Shown here in pieces: positions 3,884 through 43,220 of a stretch of DNA of 64,000 nt (positions are counted from its first letter, which is position 1; the number at the start of each line of letters is the position of its first letter). The DNA is from Paraflavitalea sp. CAU 1676 (GTDB lineage Bacteria > Bacteroidota > Bacteroidia > Chitinophagales > Chitinophagaceae). The notes under the pieces were generated by a model. That model worked only from the letters and a program-made list of their open reading frames with translations. It had not been told where the DNA came from and ran no database searches. The stretch is taken from the NCBI RefSeq assembly GCF_029223285.1, contig NZ_JARHUJ010000005.1, positions 186,001-250,000 on the forward strand, read 5' to 3'. The translations under genes were made by a program, and so were the position numbers.

Positions 3884-4219
3884 TGTCAGATTCGGGTATA
3901 TCCCTACCCGGCGCAGGGGTGGGTGGGGGCCGCTGAGCACCCCGCGGCTACTTTGGAACTCCTGCCGGGCCACCGCCTACTGGCTATGCAGCGAGCCCCC
4001 ACACCGGCCCGCAAGTACCCCTAAAAGACCTTCACTCCTTGCCTCCAGAGGTGCTGATTTGATCTGCCATGCGTCGTTTCATCCGGCGAAGACGCGTTGG
4101 AGCCTTTTCTTTTACTGGCCTACCGCCTATGTGGCAACCGGACTACCACTCACCACCTCCGGTGAACCTGGGTATCTTCTTCTTACCGATATTTGCAGCC
4201 ATTTTTAAACAAAGAACAC

Positions 4220-5215
4220 ATGCGTATTGCGATCAATGGAATGGGACGTATCGGCCGGCTTCTCTTCAGGCGGCTGGCAGGCAGGAAGGATCTGGAGCTG
4301 ATAGCCATCAACGACATCATGGAACCAGGCAACCTCGCCTACCTGCTCAAATACGATTCGGTGTATGGCACCTATCAGCATGAAATAACATTAGAGAATG
4401 ACGAACGCCTCCTGGTAAACGGACAGTCGATCGCCGTGCTGCAGCAGTCCGATCCCGCTAAGCTGCCCTGGAAAGACCTGGGTGTGGATGTAGTGCTTGA
4501 GTGTTCCGGCAAATTCACCAGCCGGGCAGGCGCCTCCACCCACTTATCGGTTGGGGCGAAGAAGGTATTGTTGTCAACCACCGGTGCGCCGGAGATACCG
4601 TTGATGATCTACGGCTTCAACCAGCACCTGCTGACCCCCGAAACCGATATCATATCGCCCGGTGGCTGCATGACCAACTGCTCCACCCATATCCTTTACC
4701 TCATGAACTCCATCGGGATCGAATCGGCCCATATCAACGTGCTGCATTCTTATACTTCCCGCCAGGGTATCGTCGATGCGCCGCACAAGCAGTTCCGCCG
4801 CGGCAGGGCTGCTGCCGAATCGATCATCCCCGTAGAGATCGATTTGGCCCACTCCCTCGAAACCTTATTCCCCTTGTTACAGGGTAAGATCGCTACCGTT
4901 TCCACCCGCGTGCCGGTAGCCAATGGGGCACTGGCCGACTTTACCCTTCAATTGAAACAGCCTGCCGCGGCCGACCAGATCAACCAGCTATTCCGCACGG
5001 CCGCCGCTACCGAATACAAAGGCATCATCGATTATACCGAAGAGCAACTGGTGTCGCTCGACATTAAAGGCAATACCCATTCGTGCATCCTGGATGGTAC
5101 CCTTACTTCCGTCGTCGGCAACCACGTTAAACTCATTACCTGGTTCGATAATGAATTTGGTTACACCAGCCGCATGCTCGACTGGCTCCAGTACTGGAAA
5201 CGCGTATTGGGATAA
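4220..5215 (+). CDS. Glyceraldehyde-3-phosphate dehydrogenase family protein, diverged active-site loop
   Basis: The product has 331 residues, the usual GAPDH length. It starts with the Rossmann motif INGMGRIGR. An Asp follows the second strand (IAIND), as in NAD-dependent enzymes. The active-site Cys is Cys150 and the catalytic His is His176 in HSYTSRQ. The phosphate-binding RRGRAAAESIIP and the C-terminal WFDNEFGY are present. GAPDH oxidatively phosphorylates glyceraldehyde 3-phosphate in glycolysis. The loop GGCMTNC replaces the usual SCTTNC, so this may be a second paralogue or an erythrose-4-phosphate dehydrogenase-type enzyme. The start is the ATG at 4220, where family homology begins. 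It is monocistronic with a terminator 20 bases after the stop. Confidence 0.88.
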   Translation: MRIAINGMGRIGRLLFRRLAGRKDLELIAINDIMEPGNLAYLLKYDSVYGTYQHEITLENDERLLVNGQSIAVLQQSDPAKLPWKDLGVDVVLECSGKFTSRAGASTHLSVGAKKVLLSTTGAPEIPLMIYGFNQHLLTPETDIISPGGCMTNCSTHILYLMNSIGIESAHINVLHSYTSRQGIVDAPHKQFRRGRAAAESIIPVEIDLAHSLETLFPLLQGKIATVSTRVPVANGALADFTLQLKQPAAADQINQLFRTAAATEYKGIIDYTEEQLVSLDIKGNTHSCILDGTLTSVVGNHVKLITWFDNEFGYTSRMLDWLQYWKRVLG

Positions 5216-5235
5216 TCCGCATATTGAATAGTATA

Positions 5236-5282
5236 ACATCGCCCTGTTGTTGGATAATTCCGCAACAGGGCGATGTGTTTTA
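5236..5282 (+). terminator. Terminator after the GAPDH gene
   Basis: A perfect 14-base inverted repeat (5236-5249 and 5263-5276) surrounds a 13-base loop. It is followed by a short, interrupted T-rich tail (gtttt). Confidence 0.75.
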
Positions 5283-5420
5283 AAGCAGGTAGCGGTCGGC
5301 TCTCTTCAATAAAAAAGAATTAAATGTAAACGCTGCCACAATTTTTTTTCATAATACCGTTAAGTGTATGCGTTAATATCCTGTGGAGAAATCAACACAA
5401 TAAATCCTAAATCTAACCCA

Positions 5421-6008
5421 ATGAAGAAGTTAACCAACCTGCTGTTGGCCGTTATGGCCCTGTCCCTGTCTGCCCATGCGCAATTCAAATCAGAGCCATC
5501 GAATGCTGGTTTTATCAAGGCGGTAGAAACCATCATGGGCGATTTCCCTTACAATTACAAACATATTACGGGTGAGCTGGTAGAGGCTACCGGCGACTGG
5601 CACCAGTATAGCTCTACCGTGAAGATCCCGGGATCGGAGCATTGTGTCGTGGGCCTTTACCATTCTGAAATAGATACTACGGCCAGCTGGCAGGCGCTCT
5701 TGTTCCGCAGCGACAATTTCAGTAAGGCAAAGTCGGCCTACAAAAAACTGTATCAACAATTGAATCAGTGCAGGCTGCGTATGGTGGATGGCAGCGTCTA
5801 TTTCCTCAATGGAGAGTTTGAAGACGTATCGGAAGGAATGGACTTTGTAACAAGTGCCTTTCGTATCCAGACAGCCGATGAACGTTTCCGGGAGTTTCAT
5901 GTAGAGCTCGAACTGCTTTACCAACTGGACGAGTGGGTCGTGAATGTGAACATGGTAAGCAAAAAGAAAGATAATGAAGTGCGGCCTGATTGGATGACAG
6001 GCCGTTAA
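5421..6008 (+). CDS. Secreted protein of unknown function
   Basis: The product has 195 residues. It opens with a signal peptide (MKKLTNLLLAVMALSLSAHA, cleavage near residue 20). The remainder is soluble alpha/beta-looking sequence with no recognised motif; AFRIQTADERFREFHVELE near the middle is typical of small periplasmic proteins with a sheet fold. The ATG at 5421 is chosen over an in-frame one 57 bases upstream because the signal peptide starts there. It is monocistronic, ending at a terminator shared with the convergent cupin gene. Function cannot be inferred. Confidence 0.7.
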   Translation: MKKLTNLLLAVMALSLSAHAQFKSEPSNAGFIKAVETIMGDFPYNYKHITGELVEATGDWHQYSSTVKIPGSEHCVVGLYHSEIDTTASWQALLFRSDNFSKAKSAYKKLYQQLNQCRLRMVDGSVYFLNGEFEDVSEGMDFVTSAFRIQTADERFREFHVELELLYQLDEWVVNVNMVSKKKDNEVRPDWMTGR

Positions 6009-39432: not shown

Positions 39433-39558
39433 ATGTCTGCCAACAACGATGATAAAGTGCCTGTATTCAGGCAATGGCGCCAGTGGTACTGGTTCGTGAT
39501 CGTATTGCTCGCGCTGCAGGTCATATTGTTTTATTTGTTTACCAAACATTACGCATGA
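39433..39558 (+). CDS. Tiny single-helix membrane protein (41 aa)
   Basis: The product begins MSANNDDKVPVFRQWRQWY, then one hydrophobic helix (WFVIVLLALQVILFYLF) and a short tail TKHYA. Its stop codon overlaps the ATG of the symporter gene in ATGA, the hallmark of translational coupling. Small membrane proteins directly before sodium:solute symporters are known in other bacteria (for example YjcH before ActP, which is larger and two-helix). The Trp/Arg-rich membrane edge suggests the N-terminus is cytosolic. No named family is recognised. Confidence 0.7.
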   Translation: MSANNDDKVPVFRQWRQWYWFVIVLLALQVILFYLFTKHYA

Positions 39559-41306
39559 ACTTTTCCCCGTTAGACTGGTTCGTACTGGTAGCAACGCTGT
39601 TGTGTATCATCCTGTATGGGATATACAAAAGCCGTTCGTCCAAGAACGTGGAGGGGTACTTCCTGAGCAACCGGCAGATGCCCTGGTGGGTGGTGATGCT
39701 GAGCATCATGGGTACGCAGGCTAGCGCAGTTACCTTCCTCACGGCGCCGGGACAAGCCTATACCGACGGGATGCGTTTTGTGCAGTATTATTTTGGATTA
39801 CCGCTGGCGATGATCGTGGTGTGTGTGGCTTTTGTACCCATCTTCCGCCGGCTGAAAGTATATACTGCTTATGAGTACCTCGAGCAGCGTTTTGATATAA
39901 AGACCCGCATGATCACTTCGCTGTTGTTCATGTTGTCGCGCAGTCTGAGTACCGGCATCAGTATCATAGCGCCGGCCCTGGTGCTGCACAGCATGCTGGG
40001 TTGGGATATTACGATCACCAATATATTTATGGGTGGTTTATTACTGATCTATACGACCAGTGGGGGAGCGAGGGCGGTTGCTTATACGCAGCAATTGCAG
40101 TTTGTGATCATTTATGCCGCTATGTTTGCGGCCGCCTGGTGGGCCATCCATTTGTTGCCCGATGGTATCGGTGTGGCTGAGGCGTTGCACATTGGTGGAA
40201 AGTCGGGCAAGATGAATGTGATAACGACCGGGTTTACTGATCAGGGCTTCGACTGGAAAGACCGCTTTAATATCTGGAGCGGATTGATCGGCGGCTTCTT
40301 CCTTACGTTGAGTTATTTTGGAACCGATCAAAGTCAGGTTGGCCGTTACCTCACTGCCCGCAGTGAAGGCGAAAGCAAATTGGGTTTGTTGCTGAATGGC
40401 GTAGTGAAGGTTCCGTTGCAGTTTGGTATTCTCCTGATCGGGATATTTATATTCTCCTTTTATCAATTTCATAAGACACCGGCTTATTTCAACCTCGCAG
40501 AAGAGCGGAATGCGAAGTCTGGCAAGTATGCCAAGCTCTACAATGAGGCAGAGCAGCAGTACCATGTATTGCAGGAGCAGAAAGCAACCGCGATCACCGG
40601 CCTGGCAGCTGCGTTGAAGGCTGAAGATCAGGCGGGCATCGACAAATACCGGCAGGAGCTGGACCTGCATGAGAAGGCAGCCCGGCACCAGCGCGATTCG
40701 GTGAAGTCGATCATCAAACTGGCCAATCCCGGCAGTGAAGGCAATGATACCAATTACATATTCCTGCGTTTTGTGGGTGATACGCTGCCAAATGGACTGG
40801 TGGGCCTGATCATTGCGATCATCTTCCTGGCTGCCTGGGGTAGTATTGCACCAGCTTTGAACTCACTGGCTTCCTGTACCATGATGGATTTTCACAAGCG
40901 GCTTTCGCCGCAACCGATGACTCCGTTGATCGAGTACAAATGGTCGAAGCGGTATACCGTAATATGGGGTATCGTGTGCATCATCATGGCGCAGTTTGCT
41001 TATAACCTGGGTAATAGTTTGATCGAGGCCGTAAACATCCTTGGTTCCTTGTTCTATGGTCCAATCCTCGGCATCTTCCTGGTGGCCTTCTGGGTCAAAC
41101 GGGTGGGTGGCCATGCGGTATTCTTTGCAGCGGCCCTCGCTGAGGTAGTGGTGCTGACGGTTTATTTTATGAAGATCGTTTCCTTCCTGTGGCTGAATGT
41201 GATCGGTGCGGTGGCAGTGATCCTGCTGAGCTTAATGATCCAGCCATTTTGTAAGCGGGCTACAGTGGCCGCTTCTGCAGCGCCGGCTGAAGTGCCGGCG
41301 AAATAA
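39555..41306 (+). CDS. Sodium:solute symporter (SSS family)
   Basis: The product has 583 residues with about 13 to 14 predicted membrane helices. SSS signatures include YFLSNRQMPWWVV near the start, TAYEYLEQRFD, the sodium-site region GTQASAVTFLTAPGQAY, and TLSYFGTDQSQVGRYL. A charged insertion of about 90 residues (near 310-400, rich in Glu, Lys and Gln, probably coiled coil) interrupts the helices between TM 9 and 10. The substrate cannot be told; the neighbouring deacetylase suggests a sugar or amino-sugar product. Its start overlaps the stop of the 41-residue protein, and the carrier-like gene follows after 17 bases. Confidence 0.93.
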   Translation: MNFSPLDWFVLVATLLCIILYGIYKSRSSKNVEGYFLSNRQMPWWVVMLSIMGTQASAVTFLTAPGQAYTDGMRFVQYYFGLPLAMIVVCVAFVPIFRRLKVYTAYEYLEQRFDIKTRMITSLLFMLSRSLSTGISIIAPALVLHSMLGWDITITNIFMGGLLLIYTTSGGARAVAYTQQLQFVIIYAAMFAAAWWAIHLLPDGIGVAEALHIGGKSGKMNVITTGFTDQGFDWKDRFNIWSGLIGGFFLTLSYFGTDQSQVGRYLTARSEGESKLGLLLNGVVKVPLQFGILLIGIFIFSFYQFHKTPAYFNLAEERNAKSGKYAKLYNEAEQQYHVLQEQKATAITGLAAALKAEDQAGIDKYRQELDLHEKAARHQRDSVKSIIKLANPGSEGNDTNYIFLRFVGDTLPNGLVGLIIAIIFLAAWGSIAPALNSLASCTMMDFHKRLSPQPMTPLIEYKWSKRYTVIWGIVCIIMAQFAYNLGNSLIEAVNILGSLFYGPILGIFLVAFWVKRVGGHAVFFAAALAEVVVLTVYFMKIVSFLWLNVIGAVAVILLSLMIQPFCKRATVAASAAPAEVPAK

Positions 41307-41323
41307 CAACAAATTCTTCTACC

Positions 41324-41590
41324 ATGGGCCTCGATACTGTAGAATTGCTGATGACCGTTGAAAAGCACTTCGGGATCTCTATTCCCGATCAGGAAGCTGA
41401 AAACATAATCACGGTGGGTGACTTTCATGAGGCAGTCTGGCAGCACCTGCAACGTGACCCCGCTAAGGCACTGATGTTGAGAGCGGAGGTGGAAGCGACC
41501 ATCAATACGATCATTGTCGATTTTGCCGGCCTTGACCCCGAAGATGTATCTCCCGAAAAAAGTATCACCAATGATCTTGGGTTGGATTGA
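41324..41590 (+). CDS. Acyl-carrier-protein-like, apparently circularly permuted and lacking the Ppant serine
   Basis: The product has 88 residues. Residues 2 to about 43 (GLDTVELLMTVEKHFGISIPD and the following AENIITV) match the second half of acyl carrier proteins, from helix II onward. Residues about 53-88 (INTIIVDFAGLDPEDVS, ending ITNDLGLD) match the first half, helix I and the loop, up to the residue just before the attachment serine. The order of halves is thus inverted, and the break falls exactly at the serine, which is absent: Gly2 stands in its place at one end and the stop at the other. It could be a non-acylated regulatory or scaffold relative. It is the last gene of the deacetylase/symporter unit. 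Confidence 0.75.
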   Translation: MGLDTVELLMTVEKHFGISIPDQEAENIITVGDFHEAVWQHLQRDPAKALMLRAEVEATINTIIVDFAGLDPEDVSPEKSITNDLGLD

Positions 41591-41618: not shown

Positions 41619-41653
41619 ATCGCCAAATCGTGGTAGTTCCACAATTTGGCGAT
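41619..41653. terminator. Terminator between convergent genes
   Basis: Arms 41619-41633 and 41639-41653 pair over 15 bases with one mismatch around a five-base loop. The T-run (CTTTTTAG) is on the minus strand, so it mainly serves the gene at 41667-43166. Confidence 0.75.
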
Positions 41654-41666
41654 GCATGTGGAGGGG

Positions 41667-43166
41667 TTAATTAATTGAAAACTGGGCCAACTTTACTTTG
41701 GACCGGCCAACGTTGCGATGATGATATAATGTAAATATCCCCGTGCCGTTGAAGATTACATATGACTTGCGCGGAGCAAACCGGAGGTCGTCTGGTGTAT
41801 AATTGTTGATCCTGGCCCTTTTGATACCCCCGTTTTCATTGATCTGAAATACGGCTAATTGGGTTGAGGGCCATGATGAGAGCAGGCCAAGATCCTTAAA
41901 AGTGGTTTCGGGTTTATCGCTCGTATGCTGAATATAGTCGTGGTAGAATATATACAGATCCTTTCCGTCTTTCAGAACAGGAAGCGCTCCGCTATAGAGT
42001 GGGTACGATTGTTCATGTTGTTTACTGGGAATAGCCTGCATCCAGGTTAACTCATTATTGGGACTGATTTTGGTGATGTAAATACTCCCTGTGTTAGTAA
42101 GAGGATGGTAATTGCCGCTGGCAAAAAACATTCCATTATCTTCTGTTGTTTGCAAGATGAGCAATAAGCTGCCATCGGATAAGGTGAAATGGGTTATCAA
42201 ATCAACATTGGCTGATATCCCGCGCTGTTTCATTTCCAGCAGAAATTCCCCGGTTGCAGTTGACCAAAAAGGAGCAGTTCCCAAAGGTGACTCTTTAATG
42301 CCCGTAATTTTTTGGGTCGAGCCGTTAAACTTCCCGGAAATCACATATTGAAAGGCTTCATTGACTGTTTTGGACAACAAGCCGGTAAAACTCAGTCCAT
42401 TGCTATCACTGGCCCAAACAATATTAGATATTCTGCCTTCGGGGAGATCGTCGATATAGGTTGTTGTTACGTTTCCATCCGCTTTTACCTCGGATACTAT
42501 ATATAGAAAGGGTTTGTAAAGATCTTTTTGTGGGCTGACACTGATCTTATTAATCATGTAAAGTGAGCCATTCTGCGACAATACGAATGTGGTATTTTTA
42601 ACAAAAGGAACTCGTCTGTCGAGTTGGATAGAGAATTTTGTACGTGTATTAAATTTGTTGTCCATTATTACACCCTCGAACACTTGTTGGTTGGCTTTAA
42701 GCCTTGTTGCAACGAAAGAGGAGCTGCTGTCCGGAGAAAAGCCCTTGTAGAATTTTTCTGGCTTTTTGGAGGCAGTAAAAACAGGTGCTGGTTGTGCCTC
42801 ACCCTTTCCGGTAGCCGGGTTAAAGGGATAAGCGTAAATTTCCTTCTTGTTGGCACAAAATACCTGGATTTTATTGTTGAACTCGATAGCTCCGAGGTAT
42901 TTTCTTTTTTTCAGTTCTTCGATAGGGTGGGAGTAGACTTCCTTCATGTTATTGTCGTAGCCGGTTACAAAGGGTTGTTCCATGTAATATTCAAATGCCC
43001 TATCGTAGAAGATGGATACGGTTGTTCCATTCACCGGCTTAAAAATTTCATACAGGTAGTCTGCGAGGACAGTAGATTCCCTGACGTTGACAGATTGTGC
43101 GAACAGGTGGTCTGGTTGAAGCCAAAAAGAGGCGGTAATAATGAATGATAAAGCGAACTTGCGCAT
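41667..43166 (-). CDS. Secreted protein of unknown function, possible beta-propeller
   Basis: The product has 499 residues counting from the ATG at 43166, with a signal peptide (about 1-23, ending LFAQ). The rest is beta-rich with repeated patterns such as DGSLLLIL, DGKDLYIFY and NGSLYMIN at regular spacing. These recall propeller blades of large exported Bacteroidota proteins. I recognise no catalytic motif. The gene looks visibly more AT-rich than its neighbours, which could mean relaxed selection or recent transfer. It has its own promoter and terminator. Confidence 0.7.
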   Translation of the reverse strand: MRKFALSFIITASFWLQPDHLFAQSVNVRESTVLADYLYEIFKPVNGTTVSIFYDRAFEYYMEQPFVTGYDNNMKEVYSHPIEELKKRKYLGAIEFNNKIQVFCANKKEIYAYPFNPATGKGEAQPAPVFTASKKPEKFYKGFSPDSSSSFVATRLKANQQVFEGVIMDNKFNTRTKFSIQLDRRVPFVKNTTFVLSQNGSLYMINKISVSPQKDLYKPFLYIVSEVKADGNVTTTYIDDLPEGRISNIVWASDSNGLSFTGLLSKTVNEAFQYVISGKFNGSTQKITGIKESPLGTAPFWSTATGEFLLEMKQRGISANVDLITHFTLSDGSLLLILQTTEDNGMFFASGNYHPLTNTGSIYITKISPNNELTWMQAIPSKQHEQSYPLYSGALPVLKDGKDLYIFYHDYIQHTSDKPETTFKDLGLLSSWPSTQLAVFQINENGGIKRARINNYTPDDLRFAPRKSYVIFNGTGIFTLYHHRNVGRSKVKLAQFSIN

Positions 43167-43188
43167 AGGCGTATTGGTATTTAGGCAG

Positions 43189-43220
43189 CAAAGAAAGTAA
43201 ATTTTAACCATTTATGCCAA
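43189..43220 (-). promoter_or_regulatory. Promoter of the secreted unknown gene (TTG-N21-TTTCTTTG)
   Basis: TTG at 43220-43218 and TTTCTTTG at 43196-43189 on the minus strand are 21 bases apart. The -7 box has one mismatch to TAnnTTTG, and the ATG follows 22 bases later. Confidence 0.4.

Follow-up and report, generated by a model that had tools for sequence, protein, structure and literature searches.

An acyl-carrier-like protein with swapped halves and chain ends at the phosphopantetheine serine position

The locus and the order of the two halves

The DNA analysed here (the window, the whole stretch of 64,000 nucleotides from Paraflavitalea sp. CAU 1676) carries an open reading frame (ORF) of 88 codons, whose product starts MGLDTVELLM and ends NDLGLD directly before a TGA stop, both termini thus reading as the initial annotation had described them. 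Between its ATG and the preceding in-frame stop lie 11 codons, none of which is ATG, GTG or TTG, so this ATG is the first possible start. The parts of the ORF and its surroundings are collected in Table 1. The long upstream ORF is by eye symporter-like, and a relative of it was found near a methyltransferase gene in another genome of the genus (G001).

Table 1. Features of the locus, with positions in the window
Feature	Position	Strand	Basis
Permuted serine-less ACP-like protein, whole ORF, 88 aa	41324..41590	+	ORF list, ACP HMM, structure model
Met1-Gly2, with Gly2 opposite the ACP serine position	41324..41329	+	HMM position 37 against residue 2
ACP second half (helices II, III, IV), residues 3-43	41330..41452	+	HMM 38-69; modelled helices
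Short linker, residues 44-52; full-length relatives have a middle of ~145 residues here	41453..41479	+	Alignments, including G004 DNA
ACP first half (helix I and loop), residues 53-88, the last being the Asp before the serine	41480..41587	+	HMM 2-36; helix 53-68
Stop codon TGA in place of the serine codon	41588..41590	+	74 of 79 relatives stop at the same point
Long ORF, 610 aa, 17 bases upstream of the ACP-like ORF	39474..41306	+	ORF list
Hairpin, terminator-like, between the ACP-like ORF and the converging gene	41619..41653	-	Consensus match only

Few bacterial proteins are more conserved than acyl carrier protein (ACP), which depends on a single serine for its carrier function. As a reference for the ordinary protein we used a hidden Markov model (HMM) made of 27 ACPs from relatives, which matched the window protein in two pieces: HMM positions 38-69 over residues 3-34 (44.6 bits), followed by positions 2-36 over residues 54-88 (23.1 bits). 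The sole position left out between both pieces is 37, the serine of the D-S-L motif, which is absent; opposite it stand Gly2 and the chain break. When the halves were put by script into the conventional order, a single match over positions 2-69 was obtained with 83.9 bits, whereas 50 shuffled versions of the halves never exceeded 3.6 bits. The same rotation of seven relatives gave 50.3-73.7 bits, with shuffles reaching at most 10.2. A profile of the family compared with PDB sequences gave the same picture, query positions 195-227 aligning to residues 2-34 of the ACP 2ehs and positions 3-42 to residues 36-75, with residue 35 alone skipped.

The window protein thus consists of the two halves of an ACP in exchanged order, its termini lying at the serine site, at scores far above chance, and the order of helices is II-III-IV-I instead of I-II-III-IV. 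This confirms both claims of the initial annotation, that the second half comes first and that the break falls exactly at the missing serine. Among curated models, the Pfam phosphopantetheine-binding family PF00550 was matched in two stretches at 29.1 bits (cut-off 20.8), and two of the three long relatives tested also passed this cut-off; none of the 16 NCBIfam ACP models listed for the window protein was passed, the best being NF002148 with 63.7 against 71. Since the Pfam cut-off is passed without an attachment site, annotation pipelines may mislabel members as phosphopantetheine-binding.

Relatives in other genomes

At E <= 0.001, 58 of 59 related genomes gave a match, nearly all through ordinary ACPs, and three of the 59 (G004, G032 and G019) contain ORFs of the form MGLDSVE...DLGID or DLGLD with about 145 extra residues in the middle as compared with the window protein. 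With these three proteins as queries, contigs from 84,980 species were scanned using the patterns MGLDSVE[IL] and [LV]M[KE]VE[KT]TF. As the N-terminus is itself a scan pattern, the family start is partly forced by the search and N-terminal counts are biased, while the C-terminus was left unforced. Of 130 confirmed stretches the best 80 were retained, which probably leaves short forms under-represented; they give 79 loci spread over at least eight groups at the level of phylum: Bacteroidota, Planctomycetota, Acidobacteriota, Verrucomicrobiota, Melainabacteria, Riflebacteria, Gemmatimonadota and Proteobacteria.

The motif [DN][LFM][GRHK]x[DN] followed by a stop closes 74 of the 79 ORFs; of the exceptions, L097 is one residue longer, L118 ends DLGMY, and a stop or frameshift interrupts L069, L098 and L100. 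According to the HMM, residue 2 stands opposite serine position 37 in 78 of 80 proteins (the 79 and that of the window), the two that do not fit (L103, L109) being taken two codons late in the start table. The last residue stands opposite the Asp preceding the serine in 74 of the 75 proteins with a detectable C-terminal match; the five lacking such a match are the three broken ones and L115 and L117. The window protein shares both marks of the family, the M-G-L-D start and an end at the position of Asp35. The swapped order recurs in all 79 loci of this best-80 set, and in the intact members examined the chain break takes the position of the serine, so that the expectation of a permuted family with fixed order and no serine was borne out. 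No version in conventional order appeared among the hits of the family searches.

Two simple readings of the ORF are thereby removed. The initial annotation had considered that it might be a broken ordinary ACP, which is ruled out by a swapped order fixed in 79 loci. Stop-codon read-through or recoding was rejected as well, the stops being mixed among the 79 ORFs (TAA 46, TGA 23, TAG 10) and no second ACP half being visible by eye after the stop in the window.

A less biased check came from whole-genome profile searches, which, with the window and the centre genomes left out, gave 12 full-length hits. The N-terminus reads MGLD in 11 of them and MEAED in one. The C-terminus falls at the same place in all 12, its last residue being D in eight and A, G, G and C in the other four. 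Nine further hits (L125-L131, L172, L174) are cousins with ends elsewhere, and the wider group thus does not share the exact break throughout. The Bacteroidota cousins L034-L037 and L039-L041 (the same as L125-L131) have the same middle and halves, with a C-terminus several residues shorter and an extended N-terminus. Counting the centre genome and cousins, matches were found in 5 of 240 genomes of the phylum of L108, 7 of 246 for L062, 2 of 199 for L082 and 2 of 200 for L088. In the phylum of the window 356 of 395 genomes matched, nearly all by fragments of ordinary ACPs, which the threshold let in, so this figure is no count of the permuted family; of the permuted kind were two full-length members, the window and seven cousins. 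The family looks patchy across genomes and accessory in character.

A scan of viral contigs for virus-borne copies gave one pattern match and no relative. Among plasmids 36 records matched, one Persicobacter plasmid with 41% over residues 1-81; the named features at the other matches are acyl carrier proteins, one of them with fabF beside it, and several matches are unannotated.

The relatives are mostly 178-241 aa long and possess a middle domain of ~90-150 residues, which is absent from the window protein and from L108. In a simple hydropathy scan membrane-helix-like segments were found in 28 of 28 ORFs of at least 218 aa and in 0 of 47 ORFs of 178-198 aa. The middle weakly resembles a second, degenerate ACP: 52 columns covering helix I, loop and helix II are in register, with an hhalign probability of just 22-38%, and in a Foldseek search with a long model (L042) several ACPs were aligned over 56-62 columns, with TM by target of 0.44-0.51 and E of 1.6-4.1. 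The region matched is taken to be the middle, because the chain carries its other ACP module in two parts. The long proteins may then be read as half, whole and half of an ACP repeat, and by analogy they may have arisen from tandem ACPs that gained new ends, as described for swaposin. Tandem ACPs such as that of the prodigiosin pathway (PDB 5y08, one of the weak hits that Foldseek gave for the long model) would be repeated units of the expected ancestral type, which are conventional in order, whereas the permuted members start and end at the serine position; among the hits no tandem precursor with conventional order appeared. Swaposin, the permuted saposin of plant aspartic proteinases, is likewise a four-helix domain of about 80 aa with swapped halves, and its permutation is explained in the accessible part of PMC3320104 by tandem duplication and new ends; its fold family is unrelated, and that part of the source reports no loss of a cofactor site at the break.

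A near-invariant Cys opens the middle domain of the long members (L042 385-387, residue 50; motif C.[ST]Q..F[YH].[LI]R); a loose form of the motif occurs in 59 of 71 long members, both short forms are without it, and this Cys could be a modification site. The Burkholderiaceae metagenome-assembled genome L097 has two full permuted copies in tandem (4017-4940 and 5001-5690).

Predicted fold and docking surface

The AlphaFold model of the window protein reached a mean pLDDT of 86.8 and pTM of 0.73 with relatives in the alignment, and that of L042 (233 aa) 93.6 and 0.79. Helices are modelled at residues 3-16, 22-25, 31-44 and 53-68; after renumbering they coincide with helices 36-50, 56-61, 65-74 and 3-15 of E. 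coli ACP, whose limits are those given in PMC12469350. The C-terminal half, for which the initial annotation had allowed that no ACP-like fold might be found, is thus modelled with a helix at the place of helix I. The best PDB hit of the window model in Foldseek is an ACP, aligned over 26 columns at 0.7 Angstrom with E 1.3; neither this value nor the best one of the long model (0.33) is significant, and a sequential aligner on a permuted fold would be expected to find one half only. The model agrees with a four-helix ACP bundle in the placing of helices, and the Foldseek match is partial. Taken together, the four ACP helices are predicted to form in permuted order within a single chain, and from the alignment its two ends would meet in the fold.

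In relation to type II ACP (AcpP; PF00550, TIGR00517, NF002148), the window protein matches in both halves, keeps the helix II residues and is predicted with coinciding helices, but differs in the swapped order, the lack of the phosphopantetheine serine and scores below the NCBIfam cut-offs. It is a genuine and unusual variant, exact in its breakpoint, of what is predicted to be the ACP fold. Literature on permuted, serine-less, swapped or decoy ACPs yielded nothing on this family, which is apparently undescribed; subscription papers are mostly outside that coverage and a description elsewhere is possible.

Helix II is named as the recognition helix of ACP in the review PMC12469350, and Asp35 and Asp38 contact Arg14 of AcpS according to PMC3447402. 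Among 72 intact members the equivalent of Glu47 is kept in all 72 and that of Asp31 in 71, and Asp35 corresponds to D in 66 and N in six; the equivalents of Asp38 and Glu41 fall inside the scan pattern. Of the 11 profile-only proteins starting MGLD, 10 have E and one has Q at the Glu41 position, and all have E at that of Glu47. Judged by these residues, the acidic docking surface of helix II appears to be kept without the phosphopantetheine arm, though much of the conservation may serve folding rather than docking.

We propose the following mechanism. The chain starts just before helix II and stops just before the serine position, and its halves are predicted to fold together into one ACP-like bundle. 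As a chain break replaces the serine, phosphopantetheine could not be attached at the usual place; the acidic surface of helix II, which ACP partners read, is retained. With the surface kept and the arm lost, the protein would most likely dock to enzymes or regulators that recognise ACP and deliver no acyl chain, acting as a mimic, competitor or tether for such partners. In the longest members the middle domain, with its membrane hairpin, would fix the docking module to the membrane; the window copy would represent a soluble permuted module alone, shortened in frame. To this picture of an arm-less permuted ACP that mimics docking we give about even credence. The order, the breakpoint, the loss of the serine, the breadth of the family and the conservation of docking residues are shown and the fold is predicted; we infer the docking role, its partners and a continued use of the window copy.

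Published work on ACP bears on this proposal. E. coli ACP with the S36T change was unable to support growth, as stated in PMC3340395, so loss of the serine ends the carrier role there. According to PMC8602292, apo- and holo-AcpP stimulate MukB comparably in vitro, so an arm-free ACP can act on a partner by docking; that case concerns an ordinary, modifiable ACP and is a precedent for the mechanism alone. A natural family that keeps the docking surface minus the serine would be a built-in test of cargo-free ACP recognition, and the permuted proteins would make a ready-made arm-less probe for ACP partners.

Alternative readings and neighbourhoods of the relatives

The reading most competitive with the docking mimic accepts the family as real and takes the window copy for a relic, i.e. 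a product of an internal in-frame deletion, still open and functionless. In a tree of the halves the window copy falls among full-length Chitinophagaceae members, in a set of 12 rows (97/92), so the simplest account is that it derives from a full-length member by an in-frame deletion; its end branch is longer (0.41). All five genomes of the genus carry the neighbouring methyltransferase gene. Beside it G004 has a full-length permuted gene, G002 retains a remnant, frameshifted and with an internal deletion of its own, and in G001 and G003 tblastn did not find the permuted gene in ~3.6 kb around the methyltransferase gene. With the gene decayed or missing elsewhere in the genus, the window copy may be a relic too. 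It also changes faster, with 13-16 unique changes in the halves against 3-7 for G004 over five outgroups.

Other features speak against decay. The start, frame, stop, docking residues and family-invariant residues of the window copy are intact, and its modelled fold is compact and confident, though with relatives in the alignment. Compared with six relatives, pN stands at 0.23-0.29, clearly less than the pS of 0.71-0.91, although the deletion may have come only after most of this divergence time. At 25 family-diagnostic positions the copy is changed, and 10 of them carry the residue of ordinary ACPs, a leaning that is not random. There is moreover a second short form, L108 of Verrucomicrobium (86 aa), which lies elsewhere in the tree of halves on a long branch and so appears independent of the window copy; beside it stands a frameshifted second copy, and in the phylum of L108 short forms were found in one of 230 genomes, L108's own. 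Weighing both sides, we regard the relic as a serious possibility, though less likely than not.

As a separate observation, the neighbouring gene of 514 aa at 41667-43211 (-) has a relative in G002 on the opposite side of the ACP-like remnant (L178 2-1162 (-)), so gene order at this locus has changed within the genus.

Chain ends placed so exactly could themselves be the working site, with the Gly amine, freed by removal of Met, or the terminal Asp carboxylate bearing an acyl or different group, or with the ends joined, as a substitute for phosphopantetheine. Proteins starting Met-Gly usually lose the Met to Met aminopeptidase, both ends align to the serine position with hardly an exception, and Gly2 is present in all 72 intact members counted, though the scan pattern forced it, and in 11 of the 12 profile-only hits. 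The last residue, however, varies in four of those 12 and is T or Y in L097 and L118, and no enzyme for such a reaction is seen adjoining the gene. We consider this unlikely, and would give no better prospects to its wider form, in which arm-less permuted carriers of many phyla use the chain ends as functional site and the longest act at the membrane. If true, it would mean a carrier that works without phosphopantetheine.

The short linker at residues 44-52 could permit domain swapping, by which two chains would swap their halves to form a dimer with a restored ACP-like surface, a possibility raised in the initial annotation. One window chain is predicted to form the compact bundle, so two are not needed, and the long relatives likewise give confident single-chain models; we judge such a dimer quite improbable. 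An assembly or start-codon artefact hiding a conventional ACP, for which nothing speaks except the odd order, has a negligible chance, as it is contradicted by the same order in relatives of many groups, by the absence of an in-frame upstream ATG, GTG or TTG in 62 of the 79 ORFs and in the window, and by an ordinary ACP encoded elsewhere in the source genome (L001).

For the docking mimic, which we prefer, the gene neighbourhoods indicate no pathway, and no neighbour family is shared across the loci. The largest neighbour cluster covers six of the 79 loci and the window, at varying distances, and tight clusters lie mostly within Niastella or other close relatives. In a Pfam tally of 38 of 67 nearby genes, DinB_2 was found in two and each of the other 24 families shown in one, with eight further families beyond those shown. 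The tightest shared neighbour outside Niastella belongs to three Obscuribacter-type loci, where a related gene on the strand of the permuted gene stops 3-9 bases away from it (L103 4288-4992, L105 4294-4998, L109 208-669); the single PhyH match of the tally may be this gene.

The flavobacterial copies sit in a conserved unit, having upstream a short element like GTTGTAAAAC and downstream its inverted form, and the sequence outside the unit is unrelated. In L080 the flanks concerned are 1395-1430 and 2029-2165, and similar ones occur in L067, L070, L071, L076, L078, L081, L085, L090, L101 and L107. In L080, the 161 bases on the downstream side fold better than shuffled sequences (z -2.63, with one of 200 as good), and the unit as a whole presumably resembles an integron-type gene cassette.
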